DNA of 64,000 nucleotides from Frigoriglobus tundricola (GTDB taxonomy: Bacteria; Planctomycetota; Planctomycetia; Gemmatales; Gemmataceae). The notes beneath the pieces are model-generated. The model ran no database searches and was not told the DNA's origin. It was given only the letters and a program-made list of their open reading frames with translations. The stretch is from positions 9,300,001 through 9,364,000 of the forward strand of contig NZ_CP053452.2 of the NCBI RefSeq assembly GCF_013128195.2, given 5' to 3'. The position numbers were made by a program, and so were the translations under genes. This document shows, piece by piece, positions 25,375-37,898 of this stretch; the stretch's first letter is position 1, and each line of letters starts with the position of its first letter.

Positions 25375-26505
25375 TTAAACCTTCCCAAGGACCGCCCCGC
25401 CGACCGACCCCACGCTCTCCTCGGTGCGCTCCGGTCGAGACGGTTGTGCGCCACGGGCCGCCCGCGCACGGTCGGAGTAAATCTCGATCACATTGGCCAC
25501 CGGGCCGACCACGAACAGCGCGTGGTAGAGCGAATGGACGTCCTTGAACGCCAGCCGGAAGACGGTTTCGGCCGCGGCCACGAGGACCGCGACCCCGACC
25601 TGCTTCCACCACCCCCGAACGGTCGTCTTCGGGTCGGTAATCATGAAGAAGATGTAGAGCTGGAACATCGGGTGGGTGAGCGGGGCCAGTTCCGTCTGCC
25701 ACGGGTGGCCGGTGACGGCGCTGCGGAGGAACGCGAGCGGTACGAACGCCAGAATGAAGGCGAACGGGATGTGGAAGCGACCGAGCTTGTACATGACCAT
25801 GCCGCCGAGCACCCAGATGGTCACCAGGGCCAGACCGTTGTTCCCGGCCTGCACGCTCAGGCTGGAGACGTGCTGCGGGGCCAGGAACAGCATCACCGTC
25901 ATGCCCAGGTTGGTCGGGTTCCAGATGTGCCGGTTACCGATCCGCAGCACGTACTTCGAGGTGATCGAGATCAGGCCGCACAGGAGGAACGGCCACAGGA
26001 GCGAAGACTTCACGAGGATGCCGGCGCTGATGCCGGACACGTACGCGCTCGCCGGGTGCGGCCACTTGCCCCACATGAACCGCCCGAGCGCCAGCTCGCA
26101 CAGCACCGTGGCCGCCATCGTGAGGAAGGTCGGCGAGTACTCCGTCAGTGCCCCGCCGGTCAGGTCCACCAGCCACGGCGGCGCCGGGTGGTTATCCAAC
26201 AGCCCGAACGACGCGTCGCTGAGGGCGAGGACCGCGGTCACCAGCATCGGCGCGTGGAACCGCGGGTCGCGCGCGACGACCTTCCACCAGACGGCGAGGA
26301 GCGCGAGGAGCAGGCCCGCGATCGCGATGACGCGGACCGTTACCGGATCGATCGAACCGGCGACCCAGCCTTGTAGGGAGCCCCGCAACAGGTAGAAGCC
26401 GAGGACCAGAGCCGCGGTCGCCGCGAACTGGGCCACGGGAACGAACGAGTCTGTGGCCGGTCCCGTAGCGGGACCGGTGGGGGCCGGAGCGGACGGGAGA
26501 GTCAT
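25375..26505 (-). CDS. RnfD/NqrB-like multispanning membrane protein
   Basis: 376 aa with about nine hydrophobic helices (ATAALVLGFYLLRG, VIAIAGLLLALLAVWW, SLLWPFLLCGLISITSKYVL, LALVTIWVLGGMVMYKLG, HIPFAFILAFVPLAFL). The segment KYVLRIGNRHIWNPTNLGM and the later FMITDPKTTV match RnfD/NqrB-type electron-transport subunits (RHxFNPTNFG and ITDPxTTP). I see no clear S/T-G-A-T flavinylation motif, so covalent FMN is doubtful. It is the last gene of the six-gene operon, overlapping the preceding gene by ATGA (26502-26505). Confidence 0.8.
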   Translation of the reverse strand: MTLPSAPAPTGPATGPATDSFVPVAQFAATAALVLGFYLLRGSLQGWVAGSIDPVTVRVIAIAGLLLALLAVWWKVVARDPRFHAPMLVTAVLALSDASFGLLDNHPAPPWLVDLTGGALTEYSPTFLTMAATVLCELALGRFMWGKWPHPASAYVSGISAGILVKSSLLWPFLLCGLISITSKYVLRIGNRHIWNPTNLGMTVMLFLAPQHVSSLSVQAGNNGLALVTIWVLGGMVMYKLGRFHIPFAFILAFVPLAFLRSAVTGHPWQTELAPLTHPMFQLYIFFMITDPKTTVRGWWKQVGVAVLVAAAETVFRLAFKDVHSLYHALFVVGPVANVIEIYSDRARAARGAQPSRPERTEESVGSVGGAVLGKV

Positions 26506-28355
26506 GGGGCGGGCTCCTCGACGCGATGGAGAGTGCCGGTCTTCGGCGAACGAATGGTCTGTGTGCGGCCCGACGGCCAGATGATCTCGGCCTTCTCCAC
26601 CCGGGCGTCGGTCCCGAGCCCGTAGTGGAGGCGGAACATGCTTTGCGCGGCGTACCCGTCACCGGCCGTGACGACCTGAAGCTGTTGCAGGACCGGTCCG
26701 GCGGCGCCCTGGCGCCAGGTGAGCTTCACCTGCGCTCCGATTGCGCTGCGGTTGCTCCAGGCGCCCGTCCGTCCGGGACGGGCCCCGCCGGTCAGTTCGA
26801 ACTGCACCCAGTCGCGGCCGGCGCCCACCGTGTTCTTGTAGAGGAGCAGCGGGGCGTTCTGGTTGGCAACGGCCACATCGAGTACGCCGCGGTTGAACAG
26901 GTCAGCCATTGTGACGGCCCGGCCGTCGAACGTGTCCGAAACGCCGACCGCGGTGGCCACGTCGGTGAACTCGCTGCCCCGGTTGATCCAGAGGCACTTC
27001 TGCTGGTAGCCGCTGAGGCTCTGGTCGCCCATCGGGGGCCAGTACTGGGCGTTCTCAATGAGCTTGTTCACGCCGCCGGCGATCTTGCCGTAGTCGTACC
27101 AGTAGCTCTTGTTCTTCGCCGCCGAAACGTAGCCGTTGGTCAGGTACAGATCGAGCCGGCCGTCGTTGTTGAGGTCCCCGAACCGAGCCCCCCAGCTCCA
27201 TCCCCCCTGGGCGACCTTGAGGAAGTCGGCCTGGTTCTGGTAGGCGGGCCGCCCGCTCGCCGTTTTCCCGGTCGGCACCCACAGGTTGTTCTTCTGCACG
27301 AGGTTCCCGGCCTCGGTAATGTTCGAGACGTAGATCGCGAGTTGCCCCTTGTTGAAAATGTCCCCGAGGCTCGCGTTCATCCCGCTCTTGGGCGCCTTGC
27401 CGATACCGATCTCATCGCCGATTTCGTTGAAGCTCTTGCCGCGGTTGTTGGCGAAAAATTCGGACACGCCGTAGTCGTTCGCCAGCACGATGTCTGGGTA
27501 CCCGGTGCCGCACAGATCCGCCGCGACGACGGCGAGCGTCCACCGGGTACTCTTGATACCAACCCGATCTGTCACGTCCTCGAAGGTGCCGTCGCCGCGG
27601 TTGCGTAGCAGGTACTTCCGCCCACCGTTCTTGGCGTATTCGAACGATTCGGGCATCACCTTTGGCGTTTCGAGGTGCCACAGGTCGAGGTCGTCGCGCC
27701 AGTAACCGGCGATAAACAGGTCGGGGAGCCCGTCCCGGTCGTAATCCAGCCAGCAGGCCGTGTTCGCGTTCACCCATTTGGGCAGTCCGGCGTGCTCCGT
27801 GACCCGCTCGAACCCCTTGCCGCCTTTGTTGCGGAACAGTTCGGGCCTGCCCCACTTGTAAACGAACAAGTCGGGGAATCCGTCGTTGTCGAAGTCCGCC
27901 CAGATGGCACCCATGCACACGCCGGTCCCGGGTTGGTTCAGATCGGCCACGCCGAGCTGCGCTGCCACCTCCTCAAACGTCCCGCCGCCACCTCTGCGGT
28001 CGTGGTCGCCGCGGTTGCGGTAGAGGTGGTTGGCCCCACCCTCCTTGCCGTTCACGGCGTAGATGTCGAGCCAGCCGTCGCCGTCGAAGTCGATGATCGA
28101 GACGCCCGCCCCCATCGCCGCAACCAGCGGCATGATGTGTTCGAGCTTCTGATCCAGAGTCGGCGATTCGTGCCGGAACGTGATCCCACACGGTTTAGCG
28201 GATTCGGTGAGGTAGAAGCCGTAGCGGTCCAGCGCTTCGGCGGCGGAGAGCTGGCCCTCGGAGGTGCCGTCCCCCGAGTGGTTCAGAACGACCACCGCGA
28301 CCAGCAGCCCGATGAAGAACGCGGTGACGATGATCCGCTTGATGGTGGCACTCAT
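26502..28355 (-). CDS. CRTAC1-like protein (FG-GAP repeats, ASPIC/UnbV domain)
   Basis: 617 aa from ATG 28355, overlapping the upstream gene by 4 nt. A signal anchor (IIVTAFFIGLLVAVVVLNHS) is followed by GITFRHESPT. FG-GAP/calcium loops of type D-x-D-x-D-G-x-x-D-L recur (DFDGDGWLDIYAVN, DFDNDGFPDLFVYK, DYDRDGLPDLFIAG, DLNNDGRLDLYLTN). The C-terminal ASPIC/UnbV domain reads SAIGAQVKLTWRQG, GDGYAAQSMFRLHYGLG and EIIWPSGRTQTI. A periplasmic beta-propeller. The operon position between a larger paralogue and an RnfD-like membrane protein suggests a shared complex. Confidence 0.9.
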   Translation of the reverse strand: MSATIKRIIVTAFFIGLLVAVVVLNHSGDGTSEGQLSAAEALDRYGFYLTESAKPCGITFRHESPTLDQKLEHIMPLVAAMGAGVSIIDFDGDGWLDIYAVNGKEGGANHLYRNRGDHDRRGGGGTFEEVAAQLGVADLNQPGTGVCMGAIWADFDNDGFPDLFVYKWGRPELFRNKGGKGFERVTEHAGLPKWVNANTACWLDYDRDGLPDLFIAGYWRDDLDLWHLETPKVMPESFEYAKNGGRKYLLRNRGDGTFEDVTDRVGIKSTRWTLAVVAADLCGTGYPDIVLANDYGVSEFFANNRGKSFNEIGDEIGIGKAPKSGMNASLGDIFNKGQLAIYVSNITEAGNLVQKNNLWVPTGKTASGRPAYQNQADFLKVAQGGWSWGARFGDLNNDGRLDLYLTNGYVSAAKNKSYWYDYGKIAGGVNKLIENAQYWPPMGDQSLSGYQQKCLWINRGSEFTDVATAVGVSDTFDGRAVTMADLFNRGVLDVAVANQNAPLLLYKNTVGAGRDWVQFELTGGARPGRTGAWSNRSAIGAQVKLTWRQGAAGPVLQQLQVVTAGDGYAAQSMFRLHYGLGTDARVEKAEIIWPSGRTQTIRSPKTGTLHRVEEPAP

Positions 28356-31300
28356 GGCCGATTCTCCCCACTGCGCCGGAAGGTCCGCAACCCGCGTTCG
28401 TAAGCGTCGGGCGCCACGTACCGCGTGTGGAAGGTCTGCCAGTCCTTGCGGTACCGCCGGTAGACCGGATCGTTCTCCAGACCCGTCGGCGCGACGTCGT
28501 AGCTCGCCATGTTGTGTGAGGGCAGCGGCAGCACCGTTTTGCCGAACCGCGTGTTCAGGTCGCCGTCCTTCACCCACCCGTCGCTGACCCAGACGAAGTC
28601 CCGTTTCCAGCCCGCCGGCGGGTCGGGCGGGGCCGCGAACCGGAGCACGATCTCGTCGCCCGCCGTCAGGATCGCGTACCGGTCGTCGGTCTTTTCCAAC
28701 AGCTCGCGAATGTCGCCGAACCGGGTGTGGTAGCCGATCAGGTCCCGCCACGGCTGCCGTTGGGACACGACCTGATCGTAGTGCGGCAGCTCGGGGGAAC
28801 TTTTGTTGGCTTGTGTCATAGCCACGATACCACGGAACCGGAGGTCCGCGACAGTCGGAAGCAGCTCCTTTTCGACAACTTGTGTGGCGTCGCGCTCGCT
28901 CGCGTAGTGCAGCGCGTCCCAATAAATTTCCATGTTCGTTCGGAGCCGAAATCGCCGTGCGGCCCCCGGCCCGTCCAGGCCGTCCAAGCGGAGCAGGATC
29001 GTCTTGTTCTTCCCCGCCGGGAAGCCGATCTTGTCGCGGGCCACTTTCCAGCCGCCCTTGCCGTCGGGAACTTCCAGGGTCAGGGCACGGGGCCGGGCGT
29101 TGCTCCCCTGTTCGAGCGCGAAGTTCACCGAACTGTCGGTGGGGTGAATCCACCCGTGGGCGACGAGCCAGACCGGCCCGGTCGTCGGGGCGTCCGCGCC
29201 CAGATCCACTTCGACCCAGTGGTCGTTCGTGATGCCCTGGTAGAGCCCGCGGCCGGCGCGGTCCAGATAGTCCCCGTCCACCGCGCGCACGGCGGCGGTG
29301 GCGTCGGCGCCGAGGTGGTCCCGCGCCTGCGCGACCGGGCGCGTCGGCCCCATCAATTGATACGCGGGCCGGGACGGTTCCAGCGCGAACCGCTCGTCCA
29401 CGTACAGTTCGGTCTCCGGGGGGTGATCGACCACGCGGAGCGCGAGGTGGTCGAAGTAGTGCGTCTCCCAGAGGTTCGCGTTCACCCGGATGTCGTAGTG
29501 CCCCTCGCGCGGAACGAGCTGGTCGCCGCGGACGCGCACCCACTCGGTCGTTTGGAGGAAGCCGCCCTTGTCCTGGGCGTTGATGTACATGCCCAGCGGC
29601 GTGCTCCACATGAAGTCGGTCACGAAGACGAACCGCTCGCCGTTCCAGGTGTACAGGAACGGGCACGACCCCTTGAGCCGCTGCTCGGCGAACATCGTCT
29701 GGTCGGCCTCTTTGCCGAATTCGACCTGGGAGGTGCCGTTGGGCCACGTGATGCGGAGGACGTCGCACCGGGTGCGCGTTCCGAGCCCGAAGTGAACCAC
29801 AGGCGCGGTGACCGGGCGCTTCACCACATGGGTTCCGGACCGGACCTCGATTTCACCGCCGATGCCGAACGAGTTGATCCGATTGTCGCCCTCGATGGCG
29901 CCTTGGGCCGCGCGGAAGCGAACGGTCTGGTAGTGGTAGGCCTTTTGTCCGGTGTTCCGATAGCGGACGGGGCGCCCCTCCGCGTCGAGCGCGAGCAGGT
30001 CGATCCGCCCCGTTCCGGCGAGGTCGGCTGCGGCACACGCCCGGGCGGGGACCGCGGCGGCCAGCCGCTCGAACTTGCCGCCACCCGACCCCAACCACGC
30101 CGCCCCGCTCGACGGACCCGAGACGATCAGATCGGGCACCCCGTTGTTATCGAGGTCCTCAATCAGCAAGCGGAGGGAGCCCGGCTCCGCTCCGGTCGCA
30201 TCGTCCCCGCGGGCCAGTTCGGCCACGTCCCACGCCCCGCGCTTGTTACGGTCCGAGATGCGAAGAACCGCCCCGTCGGCCCGGAGGGCGATGAGATCGA
30301 GCACCCCGTCCTCGTCCGCGTCCGATATGGCGATTGCGAGGAACGTCCCCTCCGGCGGGGAAACGGGCCAGGGTCGGAAGTTCCCCGACCGCTCGTTGGC
30401 GTAGACGTGCAGATGCCCCTTGCTATCCAGGATCACAGCATCGGGCGCGCCGTCGCGGTCCAGATCGGCCCAGGCCAGCGCCCGCGCTCCGTCGACCTCC
30501 GGGAAGATCGGCTGTGCGGTGAACGTCTTGTCGAAGTTGTTCCGCAAGAAGAGCGGCGGACCGGTTCGACTCGCGAGAATCAGGTCCAGGTCGCCGTCCA
30601 GGTCCACATCGGCCGCCAGCGCCGCCGCGTAATCCCCTTTCACGACGGCCGCGGCGAGTTTGGTCTCGGCCGTCCCGTCCCGAAAGCTACCGTCCCCGCT
30701 CTGATGGTAGAATTTCAGCCCGCCCGGTCCGACGAGGAGCAGGTCGGTTCGGTAGTCGTTGTCCCAGTCGATCGGGACGATCCCGTCGCGCGCCAGCGGG
30801 AGCGCGGTCAGGGTCTCGGCACTCCCCACCCGCCGGACAACGGCGCTGTTACCCAGGAACAGGAGCGGCGGGCCTTCGCCGGTGAGCCACACCGGGGTCG
30901 CGGCGTCCCAGCGCCCGGCAGGCGCATCTGTGATCGGTTCCGCCGTGAAGGTCAGTTCGGTGTCCGGCGCGGGCGGTTTGAACCGCAGTGGTGCGAGGCG
31001 GCGGAACACGCGGAGCGGGTTGCCGCGGTACCCGCCGTGCGGGGTCACTTCTGAGGAGTCCCGGGTGTACCCGGGTTGGGACTGATATACGTTCGCGAAA
31101 ATGTTCGCGGCACTCACGATCGCGTCCCAATCGCCCCCCTCGAACGCTTTCTCCAGCTTTGCAAACAGTTGCTGAAGCGAGTCACCCGGGTTCTCGCCCT
31201 TCTGACTTTTCCAGTTCGGGGCCTCCGCCCGCAAACGGTTCAGGATGTCGCCGAGTGCGGCGCGGTCGGACCGTTGGACCGCGGTCCTCAACCGCTCGTT

Positions 31301-31864
31301 CTGCACGTGCTTGTTGTCGGGCCGAACGGCGAGAATCTGCTCCATCAGCCGCTGGTATTCGGCGTCACTGTCCGGTTTCTGCTCCCGCTTGGTGAGTTCC
31401 GCGAGAAAAAACAGGGCTTCGACGTCCTCCGGGTCCTTCGCGGTCGCTTTGCGCAGGCTCGCGACGGCGGCGGCATATTTCCCCCGCCGGTCCTCCAACA
31501 CGGCCCGGATCTTCATGACATCGGGGTCGTCCGGGACGAGCCGCTCCGCCTCCTTCAGATCGCTGTCGGCCTCCGGAATTCGAGCGGTACGCAATTTGAG
31601 CAGCGCCCGATTCGCCCAGCCGGCCGGCTCCTTTGGGACGAGTTCGATCGAGCGATCCAGGTTTGCCCCCGCGACGTCCACCACCTCCACGTCCATCGCC
31701 GCGACGCCGAGTTCGAACGCGGCGACGTACTCTTCGTAAACCGGGTTTCCCGGTCCCGGAAGCCGGATCAGATACTTCCAAACGAAGAACGCCGCCGCGG
31801 CCAGGAGAACGACGGCGACCACGGCGAGCAACCGCGAACGGTGGCGACGGAAATAGGAGGGCAT
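28352..31864 (-). CDS. Giant TPR / FG-GAP / UnbV envelope protein
   Basis: 1170 aa from ATG 31864 (MPSYFRRHRSRLLAVVAVVL). The N-terminal anchor helix is at about residues 11-30. TPR-like helices follow at about 40-200 (LDRSIELVPKEPAGWANRAL, AVASLRKATAKDPEDVEALF). FG-GAP repeats lie in the middle (DVDLDGDLDLILAS, DLDRDGAPDAVILD, DADEDGVLDLIALR, DLDNNGVPDLIVSG). The UnbV domain follows (NRINSFGIGGEIEV, HFGLGTRTRCDVLRITWPNG). A ~400-aa C-terminal region begins CPFLYTWNGERFVFVTDFMW; such a region often follows UnbV domains and its function is unknown. It overlaps the next gene by 4 nt and is 25 nt from the flavoprotein gene. Confidence 0.88.
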   Translation of the reverse strand: MPSYFRRHRSRLLAVVAVVLLAAAAFFVWKYLIRLPGPGNPVYEEYVAAFELGVAAMDVEVVDVAGANLDRSIELVPKEPAGWANRALLKLRTARIPEADSDLKEAERLVPDDPDVMKIRAVLEDRRGKYAAAVASLRKATAKDPEDVEALFFLAELTKREQKPDSDAEYQRLMEQILAVRPDNKHVQNERLRTAVQRSDRAALGDILNRLRAEAPNWKSQKGENPGDSLQQLFAKLEKAFEGGDWDAIVSAANIFANVYQSQPGYTRDSSEVTPHGGYRGNPLRVFRRLAPLRFKPPAPDTELTFTAEPITDAPAGRWDAATPVWLTGEGPPLLFLGNSAVVRRVGSAETLTALPLARDGIVPIDWDNDYRTDLLLVGPGGLKFYHQSGDGSFRDGTAETKLAAAVVKGDYAAALAADVDLDGDLDLILASRTGPPLFLRNNFDKTFTAQPIFPEVDGARALAWADLDRDGAPDAVILDSKGHLHVYANERSGNFRPWPVSPPEGTFLAIAISDADEDGVLDLIALRADGAVLRISDRNKRGAWDVAELARGDDATGAEPGSLRLLIEDLDNNGVPDLIVSGPSSGAAWLGSGGGKFERLAAAVPARACAAADLAGTGRIDLLALDAEGRPVRYRNTGQKAYHYQTVRFRAAQGAIEGDNRINSFGIGGEIEVRSGTHVVKRPVTAPVVHFGLGTRTRCDVLRITWPNGTSQVEFGKEADQTMFAEQRLKGSCPFLYTWNGERFVFVTDFMWSTPLGMYINAQDKGGFLQTTEWVRVRGDQLVPREGHYDIRVNANLWETHYFDHLALRVVDHPPETELYVDERFALEPSRPAYQLMGPTRPVAQARDHLGADATAAVRAVDGDYLDRAGRGLYQGITNDHWVEVDLGADAPTTGPVWLVAHGWIHPTDSSVNFALEQGSNARPRALTLEVPDGKGGWKVARDKIGFPAGKNKTILLRLDGLDGPGAARRFRLRTNMEIYWDALHYASERDATQVVEKELLPTVADLRFRGIVAMTQANKSSPELPHYDQVVSQRQPWRDLIGYHTRFGDIRELLEKTDDRYAILTAGDEIVLRFAAPPDPPAGWKRDFVWVSDGWVKDGDLNTRFGKTVLPLPSHNMASYDVAPTGLENDPVYRRYRKDWQTFHTRYVAPDAYERGLRTFRRSGENRP

Positions 31865-31889
31865 GACACGTCCGTTGAACGGGTGAAAC

Positions 31890-33389
31890 TCAACGCGACC
31901 GGGAGAGGGTGCCGAGGAACGGGTGCATGTTGCGCCGGCCGGGCTCACACAGGCTGCACGAGTCGAACGGGGCGAGGCGATCGCGGACTTCGTCGGCGAA
32001 CGCCGCGGCACCCGCGACGGGCACACCGCGTGCCTTCCGGAGCAGCTCCCCCGCGACCGCGCGGTACTCCGGGTGGTCGGTCAGCAGGAACGCGTCGTCG
32101 GGGCTCCCCTGCCCCGCCCGCTCGCGCTCCTCGCAATAGATCGCGGCCACGAAATACATCATCGACACACTAACGAGAACCGGGAACCGGTCGAAGCATG
32201 CGAAGCACGTTCCGGTGATCTCGTCCACCCAGGCGAGTTCCCGGAGGACCGTCCGGCCGTACACCTCCAGCCGCCGCTCGCGCCCCGCTCCGCCTCGCTC
32301 CTCGGCCAGAATCCCCCCGAGCCGGTTGACCGCGAAGAGCGTCTGTGCGATGCCGGGGCTCAGCCACGCGTCGAGGAACCCGGCGGCGTGCGGGAGCAGC
32401 GCCCAGTCCGCGCCGGCGGCGCGGGTCAGCCGGCGCTGCAACCGACCGGTGCGCACGAACGGACGCACGGGCACGGCCCGCGCGAACTGTCGCCCGATCG
32501 ACGGGTAGGTGTTCAGTAGCCGGTGCCACTCCGCCTCCGGCGTTTCGCCGGCCCGCAGGGGATGAGCTTCGGGATCGAGCGAGAAGCCGGTACTCGTGAT
32601 GCCGTTCTCAAAGCGAAGAACCCACATCCATCCGTTGTCGATGATCTGGTGGAGCGCGGCGGCGTCGCACGGGAACGGGTGCCGGGCGGTCGCCGCCGGT
32701 CCGGACTCCGCTTCGAGAACCGAATGCCACTCCCCCACACCCGTAAAGTGCGAATAGAGGGCACGCGACCGGGCTCGGAGGGTCCCCCCCGCGACCGGTT
32801 CGATCCCGAGTGCGCCGGCGAGAACCTGTCCCGTCCCGGTCGCGTCCACGAGCAGCCCGGCGCGGACGGAAACCGCCTCCCCGGGCCGCGCGCCCTCGAG
32901 TTCCCACCCGGCGTCGGTGTGGCGTACCGTGTGGATTTCGCACTCGTCGAGGTACGGCACGCCGGCCGCAACCGCACGGTCAACGAGGTGGGCGTCGAAG
33001 TCGGCACGGAACCAGTGCGTGTCCGCGGTGGCGTCGTCGGGACTCGCCGCGACCAGAAGAGCGTTGTCGTCGTGAGGGGTGAACGGTCGCCCCTGCTCGT
33101 GGCGGAAGAAGCTGAACCCGCGCTTCAGACCGCACGGGAGATCGGGGCGAGTGGCCTTCCAGGTGCCGTACTTGGAGAACGGTCGGAGCCAGTCGAGGCC
33201 GAACCGATCGGCGAGCGCCGCGAGCTTGAAGTCGGCGAGCGGGGTCGAGGACTCACCGATGGCGAAACGCGGGTGCCGGCCCCGTTCGAGCAACGCGACG
33301 GAATAGCCGAGTTTCTGGGCGATGATGGCCAGCAGCGTGCCACCGAACCCGGAACCGAGGATCGCGAGGTCACAATCGTATCGCGTCAC
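31890..33389 (-). CDS. Tryptophan-halogenase-like FAD-dependent oxidoreductase
   Basis: 499 aa from GTG 33389, which overlaps the stop of the radical SAM gene (GTGA). The FAD-binding Rossmann motif is DCDLAILGSGFGGTLLAIIA, followed by ALLERGRHPRFAIGESSTPL, which resembles the GExxxP segment of flavin-dependent halogenases. GLLVDATGTGQVLAG is the second flavin motif. GWMWVLRFENGITSTGFSLD aligns loosely with the halogenase GWxWxIPL region but lacks the exact motif. C-terminal SCSLCEPGRRNMHP has two Cys. Oxidation or halogenation of an amino acid or peptide is inferred only from the family. Confidence 0.82.
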   Translation of the reverse strand: MTRYDCDLAILGSGFGGTLLAIIAQKLGYSVALLERGRHPRFAIGESSTPLADFKLAALADRFGLDWLRPFSKYGTWKATRPDLPCGLKRGFSFFRHEQGRPFTPHDDNALLVAASPDDATADTHWFRADFDAHLVDRAVAAGVPYLDECEIHTVRHTDAGWELEGARPGEAVSVRAGLLVDATGTGQVLAGALGIEPVAGGTLRARSRALYSHFTGVGEWHSVLEAESGPAATARHPFPCDAAALHQIIDNGWMWVLRFENGITSTGFSLDPEAHPLRAGETPEAEWHRLLNTYPSIGRQFARAVPVRPFVRTGRLQRRLTRAAGADWALLPHAAGFLDAWLSPGIAQTLFAVNRLGGILAEERGGAGRERRLEVYGRTVLRELAWVDEITGTCFACFDRFPVLVSVSMMYFVAAIYCEERERAGQGSPDDAFLLTDHPEYRAVAGELLRKARGVPVAGAAAFADEVRDRLAPFDSCSLCEPGRRNMHPFLGTLSRSR

Positions 33390-34369
33390 GACGTCGGCCC
33401 CGTGCCGGGTTCGAGTTGCTGCGACAGGTTCATCCGGGCCAAGCGGGCCACGCGCGCGGCCCGGTTCGGGGCATCGGGCGAAACCGCCCCGATGTCCCAC
33501 AGATCGAGGAACACGCGCCCGGCCCGTAGAGACAGACCGTATTCCAGTGCGGTTTCTAACGAATCGAGCGCCGGCGGGGCGTAGTGGCCCTGTCTCGCGA
33601 GTTCTTCCATTGCCCCGTTGCCGCCGCGAGTTGGTATCAGGCTACAGCACTCGACGCCGTGCGCGAAGGCAAAGTCGAGCGACCGCTTCGCCCACTCCAC
33701 GCCGTCGGCTTCCGCAAGAAACGGCGGCCGGACCATGATAAACGCCCGCACGGCGATCCCGTGCGCCCGCAACTCCGCCGCGGCACGGGCGAAATCGTCG
33801 AGCGTCATCTGCTTGTTCAGGCGCGCGAGTACGTCGGGGTGGGCGGTTTCCAGCCCCAGCGCGACTTCGAGTTGACCGGACAGCAACGACCGGAACTCGA
33901 AGCAGCGGCGGCCGACCAGCCGGGGGTGGCACTCCACGATCACCCGCTCGAACCCCGCGGCGTGGCGGGCGATTTCGGCGTAATCGCCTTCGGGGATCGC
34001 CCGCGGGTCGAAGAAGCTCCCGGCGTTGTACAGTTTCAGATGTTGCGCCGGTGGCAGGCGCTCGAGCGCCCAGCGGATCTGCTCGGGAATCTGCCCCGGG
34101 GCCACCGAGTCCGTGAGCGTGTTCTTCCACAGGTCGCACATCAGGCAGCGGAACGGGCACTCGCGGTTCGTCAGGAACAGCGTGGCTACGTCCACTAAGC
34201 GCCCGTCTGCTGCTGGTTCCGCTTCGACGATGGAGGCGTAGGGCCGGTCCGGAGCGAGCGGATTGCGCACCGGACGTAAGCCGAGAATCCACTCGTCAGT
34301 TGGTGTTGGGAACGCCGCCAACGGATTCGACTTGCATCCCTCGGCCGTTGGAAGCGGAACCGGGTTCAT
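33386..34369 (-). CDS. Radical SAM enzyme
   Basis: 327 aa. The [4Fe-4S] motif CPFRCLMC (Cys71, Cys75, Cys78: CxxxCxxC) follows VATLFLTNRE. Later strands KLYNAGSFFDPRAI, VIVECHPRLV, VALGLETAHPDVLARLNKQM and IAVRAFIMVRPPFL fit an Elp3/archaeosine-synthase (RaSEA)-like radical SAM group, judged by pattern only. Both neighbours are on the same strand: the asparagine synthase-like gene ends 55 nt upstream, and the flavoprotein gene overlaps by 4 nt. The substrate is unknown, and no precursor peptide gene is visible in the operon. Confidence 0.88.
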   Translation of the reverse strand: MNPVPLPTAEGCKSNPLAAFPTPTDEWILGLRPVRNPLAPDRPYASIVEAEPAADGRLVDVATLFLTNRECPFRCLMCDLWKNTLTDSVAPGQIPEQIRWALERLPPAQHLKLYNAGSFFDPRAIPEGDYAEIARHAAGFERVIVECHPRLVGRRCFEFRSLLSGQLEVALGLETAHPDVLARLNKQMTLDDFARAAAELRAHGIAVRAFIMVRPPFLAEADGVEWAKRSLDFAFAHGVECCSLIPTRGGNGAMEELARQGHYAPPALDSLETALEYGLSLRAGRVFLDLWDIGAVSPDAPNRAARVARLARMNLSQQLEPGTGPTS

Positions 34370-34424
34370 ACACCCTCATGCAGCGTGGAATTCCTTCGTG
34401 TTCCGCGTGGTGTTGCGAAGACTT

Positions 34425-35750
34425 TCAGCCCAGAAACACCTTCTGGTAAGCGCGGCGGTACTCGGCCTGGCGGCTCGGGAACAGGGTGCCGGGGTGGTTC
34501 GCGGCCCCGTGCTGGAAGCGGCGCTTCGGGAAGACCGGCATGTCGAGCCCGGTCACGGCCTTCACGCCCGCCGCGACCACGCGCCCCTTCAGGGCGTACA
34601 GCCGGTCGTGGTCCCAGTCGGTCAGCTCGATGAACGGAATCGACTCGGCCACGTCGATGACGGAGGGGCACACGAACGGGCTCAGCCCGGTGAACCCGGT
34701 CACCGCGACCGGCGCGTAGGTCCGGGCGTACCCGCGACTCTGCCCGCCGGAGTACGTGAGCGAGTGCTTGATCGCCTGAACGCCCCACCCCTCCTGGTAC
34801 AACATCATGTTGTTCAGGACGCTGCGGATGGTCAGTTCCGGGTTGTCTTCGATCGGGTAGTCTTTCAGGTTCTCGTCGCCGCCGTCGCCGTCGAGCAGGT
34901 ACTTCCACTCGGGGTAGCGTGCCCGGATGCCGCGGCACAGGGCCAGGGCCATCGCCCCGGATTGCACGTCCAGCGGCTTGTAGTCCTCGATCACGCGGAT
35001 GGCGTCTTCAATCGTTACGTCCGCGGACCGCACGGGGATCGGTTCGAGGAACAGTTCCAAGCCGAGGCGGGCGAGGAACGCGCGGGCCTGCTCCACGTCC
35101 GGACCACCGCCATCGACCGAGAGCGTGAACGCCTTGAGCCGGGAGGGACTGTCGCCCCGCTTGAGGAGCGCGTGGTAGGCGAGCAGGAACACCGCGCCGC
35201 TGTCGATGCCGCCGGAGAAGCAGACTCCGATCGGCTCGCGGGGCGGCACGCGATCGAGCCACCGGACGATCTCGTTGTACGCGGCCCCTATGTACCGCTC
35301 CCCGATGGCCTCCGGGTCGGCGGGCAGCGCGTTCCGCGTCGGGGTGAAGAACCGCGTGTAGGTGGGGTTCGGGTCGGGGCAGCCGACGAGTTCGATCCGG
35401 ACAACATAGTGCGCCGGCACCATGCGGGTGTACGACGGGTGGAACTGGTCCGCCAGGCCGAGCGCTTCGAGCTGCGCGCGGATGGCGTCGATCCGGTCGG
35501 CGACGATCAGAATCGGCCCGTCGGTCCACTTCGCGATGAAGTACCGCAGCAGCCGGCCGATCGTGCGGGCCAGGAAAATGTTCTTGCCGCGCTGACCGAT
35601 CAGTGCGAACTCGCCGTCGATGCCTCCGACGGCCCCGGCGTCGCCGTTGGCGATCCGGTCCCGGGCCTCCTCGACGGTCATGTTGTAGATGCGGTTCCCG
35701 GCGGGGTCGGTCAGATCGATGACCCGCGAGAGTGGGATGGAGCGGTGCAT
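34425..35750 (-). CDS. Asparagine synthase-like (PP-loop) protein
   Basis: 441 aa, first gene of the operon. The ATP pyrophosphatase PP-loop CFSGGIDSGAVFLLAYHALL is at about 178-197, with SGGIDSG intact (179-185), and later LLDGDGGDENLKDYP. The N-terminal ~150 residues resemble a glutamine-amidotransferase fold (GGIDGEFALIGQRGKNIFLA) but the start MHRSIPLSRV lacks the catalytic Cys2, so it cannot use glutamine in the usual way. It may use free ammonia or adenylate another acid, as in lasso-peptide or beta-lactam synthetases. The chemistry is inferred. Confidence 0.86.
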   Translation of the reverse strand: MHRSIPLSRVIDLTDPAGNRIYNMTVEEARDRIANGDAGAVGGIDGEFALIGQRGKNIFLARTIGRLLRYFIAKWTDGPILIVADRIDAIRAQLEALGLADQFHPSYTRMVPAHYVVRIELVGCPDPNPTYTRFFTPTRNALPADPEAIGERYIGAAYNEIVRWLDRVPPREPIGVCFSGGIDSGAVFLLAYHALLKRGDSPSRLKAFTLSVDGGGPDVEQARAFLARLGLELFLEPIPVRSADVTIEDAIRVIEDYKPLDVQSGAMALALCRGIRARYPEWKYLLDGDGGDENLKDYPIEDNPELTIRSVLNNMMLYQEGWGVQAIKHSLTYSGGQSRGYARTYAPVAVTGFTGLSPFVCPSVIDVAESIPFIELTDWDHDRLYALKGRVVAAGVKAVTGLDMPVFPKRRFQHGAANHPGTLFPSRQAEYRRAYQKVFLG

Positions 35751-36011: not shown

Positions 36012-37898
36012 ATGTCCACACGCAATCGCAAGCCCGCCCCACCCGCACGCGGGCTGCGCGTTGTCAAATGGCTGCTCGGCGCCGTGGTTCTCGTCGCCCT
36101 CGCGGTCGGCGTGGGGATGGCCCTGCGCGCGCCGACGGCGGTTCCGGCGCCCGAGCCCGAACTCCCGGTCGTCGAAGCCCGGTTCACGGACGTTACCGAC
36201 CGCGCCGGTATCCGCTTCCGGCACGCGAACGGAGCGGCGGGCCGGAAACTTCTCCCCGAAACGATGGGGGCCGGGGTCGCGGTCCTCGACTTCGATCGCG
36301 ACGGGAAGCCGGACCTGTTCTTCGTCAACAGCCGTCCCTGGCCCGGCGCCGACCGCACGGGCGCGCGCGCGACCCAAGCCCTCTACCGCAACCGCGGCGA
36401 CGGGACCTTCGAAGACGTCACCGTTGCCCTCGGTCTGGGCGTCGAGTGTTACGGCATGGGGGCCGCGGTCGCGGACTACGACAACGACGGCTGGCCCGAC
36501 ATCTTCATCACCGCCGTGGGGGGCAACCGCCTATTTCGCAATGTGGAAGGGAGGCGCTTCGAGGACGCGACCGATCGGACGGGGCTCAGTAGCACAACGT
36601 GGACGAACGACACCGCCGCGAACTTCGCGCGCCGAACGGAGCCCATGTCGTTCCCCTCGTCGGCCGTGTGGCTGGACTACGACGGCGACGGGCGGCTCGA
36701 CCTGTTCGTCTGCAACTATGTGACCTGGTCCCCGGCGCGCGATTTGGGCGTCGCGGCCGTGCTCCCCGGAGGGATTCGGGCCTACGTGCCGCCACAGCAG
36801 TTCACCGGCGCTCAGTGCCAACTGTTCCGCAACGTGGACGGTACGCGGTTCGAGGACGAGTCGGCGGCGGCGGGCGTCCTGGTGACCGATCCCGGCGAGC
36901 CCGGAGGCGCGGGGCGACCGGTCGGCAAGGCGCTGGGCGTGGTCGTGTGCGACCCGGACGGCGACGGTTGGCCCGACATCATCGTCGCGAATGACACGGT
37001 GCGTAACTTCTTCTTCCACAACCGGCCCGGCCCGAACGGCAACCGCACGTTTCAGGAAACCGGGCGGTTCTCGGGGATCGCTTACGCCGATGGTCGCCCC
37101 CGCGGCGGCATGGGAATCGATGCGGGCGAGATCGCACCGGGCACTCTGGGTGTGGTGATAGCGAACTTCACCCACGAGCCCGACTCCTTGTTCCTCCTCA
37201 AGGGAACGAGCCCGGTGCTGTTCGCGGACGCCGCGGTGGAACTCGGGCTCGCCGGCGCGAGTACGCGGGCGATGAAGTTCGGAGCGGTTCTGTTCGATTT
37301 CGATCGCGACGGCCGGCTCGACCTGTTTACCGCGAACGGGCACCTGGAACCGGACATCGCGACGACCCACACCGGTCAGACGCACGCCCAGGCGGGGCAG
37401 TTGTTCTGGAAAACGGGTCCGCCCCGCCAGGGGTTCGTCGCGGTAACGGGGCCCGGCGGCCTCGACGCGTTCCCGCTCATGGTCGGCCGCGGGTGCGCGT
37501 ACCTCGACTACGACGGCGACGGCAAACTCGATCTGGTGGTGACCGAGAACAACGGTCGCGCCCGGCTGTTTCGCAACGAAACGCCCGACGGGAACACCTG
37601 GGTGCGGTTCGCGCTCAGCGGCGAGAAGGGGCGAACCAACCGCGACGGCATCGGCGCGGAGGTCACGGTTCACGCGGGGGGCCTGGTCCAGCGCCGGTAC
37701 GTCACCGCGGCACACGGCTACCTGAGCCAGTGCGAACCGAGCGCGTACTTCGGACTGGGTTCGGCCGCCACGATCGACCGCGTCACCGTCCGCTGGCCGG
37801 GTCGCACCGGCCACACGCAGGAGTGGCAGAACGTCCCCGCCGGTACGACGTATCGCCTCATGGAAGGCGCACCGGAACCGATTCCGATGGGGCGCTAA
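36012..37898 (+). CDS. CRTAC1-like protein (FG-GAP repeats, ASPIC/UnbV domain), divergent
   Basis: 628 aa. An N-terminal anchor (VVKWLLGAVVLVALAVGVGM) is followed by FTDVTDRAGIRFRHANGAAG. FG-GAP loops: DFDRDGKPDLFFVN, DYDNDGWPDIFITA, DYDGDGRLDLFVCN, DPDGDGWPDIIVAN, DFDRDGRLDLFTAN, DYDGDGKLDLVVTE. The UnbV domain near the end reads DGIGAEVTVHAGG, AHGYLSQCEPSAYFGLG and VTVRWPG. The start has no strong Shine-Dalgarno. It is transcribed away from the six-gene operon across a 261-nt spacer and is related to two of its products, so it may be part of the same system. Confidence 0.88.
   Translation: MSTRNRKPAPPARGLRVVKWLLGAVVLVALAVGVGMALRAPTAVPAPEPELPVVEARFTDVTDRAGIRFRHANGAAGRKLLPETMGAGVAVLDFDRDGKPDLFFVNSRPWPGADRTGARATQALYRNRGDGTFEDVTVALGLGVECYGMGAAVADYDNDGWPDIFITAVGGNRLFRNVEGRRFEDATDRTGLSSTTWTNDTAANFARRTEPMSFPSSAVWLDYDGDGRLDLFVCNYVTWSPARDLGVAAVLPGGIRAYVPPQQFTGAQCQLFRNVDGTRFEDESAAAGVLVTDPGEPGGAGRPVGKALGVVVCDPDGDGWPDIIVANDTVRNFFFHNRPGPNGNRTFQETGRFSGIAYADGRPRGGMGIDAGEIAPGTLGVVIANFTHEPDSLFLLKGTSPVLFADAAVELGLAGASTRAMKFGAVLFDFDRDGRLDLFTANGHLEPDIATTHTGQTHAQAGQLFWKTGPPRQGFVAVTGPGGLDAFPLMVGRGCAYLDYDGDGKLDLVVTENNGRARLFRNETPDGNTWVRFALSGEKGRTNRDGIGAEVTVHAGGLVQRRYVTAAHGYLSQCEPSAYFGLGSAATIDRVTVRWPGRTGHTQEWQNVPAGTTYRLMEGAPEPIPMGR

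Follow-up and report, generated by a model that had tools for sequence, protein, structure and literature searches.

Co-inheritance of a ligase, radical SAM and halogenase-like gene module with one clade of UnbV-type proteins in Planctomycetota and other bacterial phyla

Introduction

Proteins with UnbV/ASPIC domains are abundant in the Planctomycetota and in many other bacteria, they form part of enediyne cassettes, and they have a human relative, CRTAC1. To our knowledge, no bacterial function has been established for them. A six-gene operon of the planctomycete Frigoriglobus tundricola, in which the genes for three enzymes precede those for two UnbV proteins and a membrane protein, raises the question of what such enzymes might contribute to an UnbV protein. 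The operon lies within a stretch of 64,000 nucleotides (contig NZ_CP053452.2, positions 9,300,001 to 9,364,000), which is referred to here in its full length as the window and to which the plain coordinates given below relate.

Organization and conservation of the operon

The six genes, designated A, S, H, T, U and R in the order of transcription, are located on the minus strand at positions 35750-25375 and form a single operon. A gap of 55 nt separates A from S and one of 25 nt separates H from T; the remaining junctions are 4-nt overlaps (GTGA at S/H, ATGA at both T/U and U/R). The genes, coordinates and junctions of the original prediction were all confirmed, and the order of the six genes is kept in the Gemmata relatives and Limnoglobus (L026-L029, L031, L042-L045, L094), so that their arrangement is not a matter of chance. 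Since A and S overlap in the Gemmata relatives, the genes are likely to form one transcription unit; a scan for the sigma-70 consensus found no promoter-like sites inside the operon. A role in anti-phage defence was considered and rejected, as PADLOC gave no match.

Distribution of the A-S-H module and its co-inheritance with T

When 84,980 species were scanned with a profile, more than 575 loci with A were recovered, and the best 80 of these are found in genomes labelled as Planctomycetota, Bacteroidota, Verrucomicrobia, Gemmatimonadota, Marinimicrobia and Calditrichota, among others. Among 105 A loci that were scanned, S is located directly downstream in 75, and S together with H in 45, numbers that include contigs with early ends. 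The search for the same neighbourhood in other phyla, which had been proposed as a check on the operon, thus recovered a conserved A-S-(H) neighbourhood, and A-S-H often occurs as a stand-alone operon amid housekeeping genes. Within the Gemmataceae, all 10 genomes with A also have S and H, and both are absent from 6 control genomes without A; S is likewise absent from 25 checked genomes that lack A, save for two weak matches.

The distribution of A is closely mirrored by that of a particular subfamily of T proteins. A is present in 22 of the 244 sampled Planctomycetota, and the T subfamily occurs in every one of these 22 genomes versus 4 of the 222 genomes without A (Fisher 1e-27; such Fisher values overstate the independence of the genomes). 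In a sample of relatives the corresponding numbers are 22/23 and 1/76, and the one A-containing genome in which T is missing, G029, has a completeness of 84%. T accompanies A irrespective of whether the two genes are linked, and A-S adjoins T in several phyla. When any UnbV protein was considered as the partner of A, the separation was much poorer (22/22 versus 144/222, p 2e-4), and this broader association was dropped because the T subfamily discriminates far better.

Of 61 Gemmataceae, 10 contain A and the identical 10 contain R, with the two genes unlinked in 4 of them (Fisher 1e-11, without tree correction). Outside of this family, A occurs without R, and most genomes with A-S-H possess T and no R; hence, R depends on A and not the reverse. 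The A-S-(H) module is tied to T rather than to R, and its coupling to T is strong. The co-inheritance of T with A bears out the original idea of a functional link between the cytosolic enzymes and a periplasmic protein of the UnbV type. We found no paper in the open-licence literature that describes an association of A-S-H with T.

The T protein and its tryptophan pair

T (28352..31864, minus strand; 1170 aa) is a TPR/FG-GAP/UnbV protein with an N-terminal membrane anchor and a C-terminal domain of about 440 aa. The description of T and U as two UnbV proteins holds inasmuch as UnbV/ASPIC and FG-GAP domains are found in both; T is more than this, as it additionally possesses a TPR N-terminus and the large C-terminal domain. 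The latter has no Pfam match. Its fold is predicted with confidence (pLDDT 90), and a fold search returned no PDB match below E 1e-3, with partial jelly-roll resemblance only.

In an initial alignment, 35 T proteins in the company of A, meaning that A is either linked to T on its contig or present elsewhere in the genome, were compared with 23 outside the subfamily from genomes without A. Few positions set the two groups apart, most conspicuously Trp753 and Trp799, and 60 more T domains were subsequently read. While Cys734 (codon 29663..29665, minus strand) is invariant in every T protein aligned, Trp753 (29606..29608, minus strand) is present in 44/44 proteins in the company of A and in 0/74 outside, and Trp799 (29468..29470, minus strand) in 43/44, with one Tyr, and again in 0/74. 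The outside proteins carry Gly or Ser at position 753 and a polar residue at 799; they include second, outside-type copies in the A-containing genomes G081 and G092. Gln876, at one point taken as a further subfamily-specific residue, was abandoned when the larger alignment contradicted it.

In a phylogenetic tree of T, the A-linked proteins form a single clade, at the base of which stands the protein of G114, a genome without A whose T has Gly and Gln at the two positions. This topology makes a single joint gain, with strict conservation at about 36% identity ever since, more likely than many independent events, and the Trp pair could be a mark of the clade. A bimodal distribution of bit scores was discarded as a criterion for the subfamily: at the scale of the phylum, the outside group reaches 460 and the subfamily starts at 465, and because the scores nearly touch, the tree and the residues were used instead. 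The other three of the four genomes with a subfamily T and without A (G069, G242, G295) keep both Trp residues; they also lack S and are candidates for gene loss or for cofactor uptake.

The three enzymes

A (34425..35750, minus strand; 441 aa) matches the Asn_synthase family (PF00733, E 1e-14). It contains the PP-loop motif SGGIDS (SGGxDS in asparagine synthetases) in its synthetase domain. The N-terminal Cys2 of the glutaminase of asparagine synthetases is lacking, as had been noted originally, and a Cys at position 2 is found in no aligned relative of A. The protein is about 60% identical across phyla and is encoded by a single-copy gene. An asparagine-synthetase fold without a glutaminase suits a putative ligase that uses another amine. 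The possibility that A is the asparagine-synthase-like cyclase of a lasso peptide or another RiPP with a separate precursor was rejected, since the region upstream of A is not conserved among its relatives and contains no conserved small ORF; likewise, no recurrent small neighbour of A was detected among ORFs of at least 80 aa.

S (33386..34369, minus strand; 327 aa; PF04055) carries the CxxxCxxC motif of radical SAM enzymes for the [4Fe-4S] cluster (34136..34159, minus strand), and the three cysteines (Cys71/75/78) are conserved among 80 relatives. With 105.2 bits against TIGR01210, the model of RaSEA, it falls below the curated cut-off of 212.15, and by this measure S is a distant relative of RaSEA and not RaSEA itself. 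Family searches revealed neither a SPASM nor a leader-binding region in S.

H (31890..33389, minus strand; 499 aa, GTG start) is a flavin halogenase-like protein of the CtcP/PltM type (E 3e-52 and 2e-45, respectively), with which it aligns over 400 residues. It possesses the GxGxxG flavin motif and the conserved lysine of flavin-dependent halogenases, Lys89 (codon 33123..33125, minus strand), which is invariant in 50/50 relatives and aligns with a lysine of PltM. This PltM residue is position 107 of the chain, which we equate with the catalytic Lys87 on the assumption of a 20-residue tag. H differs from PltM and CtcP in the WxWxIP motif of halogenases, of which WxW is kept and which reads WxW[LI]R in most relatives. 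H is also weakly similar to the maturases QhpG, GoxB and LodB.

The UnbV protein U and the membrane protein R

U (26502..28355, minus strand; 617 aa) is an FG-GAP/UnbV protein (PF07593, E 3e-17) with an N-terminal anchor, and its gene adjoins that for R in every R locus inspected. R (25375..26505, minus strand; 376 aa) is an UnbU-like membrane protein without a match in Pfam or NCBIfam. Its profile matches the RnfD protein of Azotobacter (E 2.6e-5), and a search with its predicted fold returned NqrB and RnfD (15 hits, E < 1e-3). The motif for covalent FMN attachment (S/D-G-A-T), however, is absent in 20/20 R relatives, and no other Rnf subunits are encoded in the operon. R was therefore rejected as a true Rnf subunit, and its proposed role as an electron-transport subunit finds no support, given that the motif is missing and that most A-S-H genomes have T without R.

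U and R resemble the UnbV-UnbU pair of enediyne cassettes, whose components E4 and E5 we take to be UnbV and UnbU, respectively. The cassette as a whole is composed of E3/E4/E5/E/E10 (PMC5181780). Both systems combine an FG-GAP/UnbV protein with an adjoining RnfD-fold membrane protein, but the window contains no iterative PKS (KS-AT-ACP-KR-DH) with a thioesterase, R belongs to a different subfamily, and T and A-S-H are present in addition; without a PKS, the operon is not an enediyne locus. The earlier statement that no described pathway has this gene set accordingly needs to be qualified for U-R, while it stands for the link between A-S-H and T in the papers searched.

Members of other R-like subfamilies are also found in the absence of A, either enediyne-like beside a PKS or in further genomes that lack A. 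UnbV and UnbU-like genes are present in planctomycetes of the family f3 (L038:2895-12180, L039, L040, L041), and relatives of U-R adjoin an enediyne-type PKS of the KS-AT-ACP-KR-DH type in L038, L039 and L041, with a fused thioesterase in L038; L040 is a contig end without a PKS. These are possible enediyne loci outside the Actinobacteria.

Hydrazine-synthase-like neighbourhoods

In Bacteroidota and related bacteria, A-S and T are found in operons together with cytochromes similar to the alpha and beta-gamma subunits of hydrazine synthase (HZS) and with ABC binding proteins, which makes a role of T in a redox assembly of the periplasm probable. HZS-like gene clusters that also encode CRTAC1 and ABC binding proteins have been described, in which A, S and the halogenase are not mentioned (PMC12758564). 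HZS alpha and beta-gamma homologues, an FG-GAP protein and binding proteins are shared between these clusters and the loci L057, L093, L103, L105 and L117, whereas the operon in the window is without HZS genes. A-S lies beside HZS-alpha-like and/or YncE-MauG cytochromes in ten loci from Bacteroidota, Calditrichota and Marinimicrobia (L057, L063, L076, L093, L100, L103, L105, L108, L117, L121), together with a propeller protein, an L-PSP/Rid protein and Peripla_BP_6 binding proteins.

A proposed pathway dedicated to T

We suggest, with a probability of roughly 0.45, that A, S and H constitute a cytosolic pathway of three steps that is devoted to T. Its product would be needed by T, either as a bound cofactor or as a modification of the protein, with Trp753 and Trp799 and their surroundings in the C-terminal domain as its site. 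As its glutaminase has been lost, A would use ATP to couple a carboxylate with an amine that is not ammonia released from glutamine, and S would subject the adduct to a radical transformation, for instance a cut that leaves nitrogen behind. The model for these two steps is the archaeosine pathway, in which lysine is joined by ArcS and the adduct is then processed by RaSEA (PMC11298593). The likeness is one of analogy, as in both cases an amino-acid-joining enzyme has a radical SAM enzyme of the RaSEA type as its partner; A, however, is an asparagine-synthetase-type ligase and not ArcS, and S reaches only half of the RaSEA cut-off. A precedent for a radical SAM enzyme and an FAD enzyme that together serve a single exported protein is the QHNDH (qhp) system, in which a radical SAM enzyme and a flavoprotein mature a peptidyl Trp (PMC7876137). 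Unlike that system, the operon encodes neither a radical SAM enzyme of the QhpD type nor a QhpE protease or a small gamma subunit, and H is closer to halogenases. In the lineages that possess it, H would halogenate or oxidize an aromatic ring, and in the Gemmataceae, U and R would add a UnbV-UnbU unit in the membrane that cooperates with T. Two observations count against this proposal: G069, G242 and G295 keep both Trp residues without A, and H is missing from the Bacteroidota loci and from G081/G092. The former could fit an uptake of the cofactor or a recent loss of the genes.

A pathway of three enzymes tied to one UnbV clade, together with a candidate two-Trp site, would render the function of UnbV proteins biochemically testable. 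The coupling of A-S-H to T suggests a cofactor or protein modification that has yet to be described, and it may be relevant to the UnbV/UnbU steps in enediyne biosynthesis, which still lack an explanation, and to complexes that resemble hydrazine synthase in non-anammox bacteria. In its most far-reaching form, which we put forward only tentatively and regard as rather doubtful, the proposal would have A-S-H build a prosthetic group not known before, or a modification derived from an amino acid, that sits at Trp753/Trp799 in the new C-terminal domain of T and has a redox or binding role in respiratory-type envelope complexes of several phyla.

By analogy with the enediyne cassettes, A-S-H might instead produce a free, perhaps halogenated, secondary metabolite, with T, U and R serving in transport, late biosynthetic steps or self-protection. 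The UnbV-UnbU relatives that flank the enediyne-type PKS in L038 and the resemblance of H, with its aligned lysine, to the small-molecule halogenases CtcP and PltM speak for such a role, but the operon is accompanied by no PKS, carrier protein or tailoring cluster, the high conservation of the single-copy A across phyla sets it apart from most of specialised metabolism, most A-S-H genomes have no R, and the residue changes track T. We therefore consider a free metabolite unlikely.

The Trp residues could also be the substrate themselves. H and S might halogenate, hydroxylate or cross-link Trp753/Trp799 of T, perhaps with Cys734, so as to generate a protein-derived cofactor akin to CTQ/TTQ. The invariance of Cys734, the A-specific Trp pair, the weak similarity of H to QhpG, GoxB and LodB, and the MauG-like cytochromes of the Bacteroidota operons would all be compatible with this. 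However, the Trp pair is conserved where H is absent, a direct modification leaves no clear role for the ligase A, S is without a SPASM or leader-binding region, and peptidyl Trp halogenases exist but are rare (PMC12715798), all of which makes this route improbable in our view. Finally, that A-S-H acts on another substrate, such as tRNA, and co-occurs with T merely through shared ancestry or transfer might be surmised from the RaSEA-like S and the frequent stand-alone operons, but is quite improbable given that the co-occurrence persists where the genes are unlinked and patchy within family and genus, and that A-S adjoins T in several phyla.

Surroundings of the operon

A divergent UnbV protein is encoded next to the operon, and outside of it, on the plus strand (36012..37898), and another UnbV gene lies nearby at G000:C1:9294162-9296222; in total, 5 of the 10 UnbV domains of the genome are located within about 45 kb. 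The binding protein of an NMT1-type ABC importer is a recurrent neighbour of T-U-R or A-S-H among Gemmataceae and their relatives (L027, L032, L034, L035, L045, L046, L094). In G091 (L036:2639-5283), T-U-R is directly preceded by genes for a 4Fe-4S-like membrane protein and for two small proteins of the envelope type.
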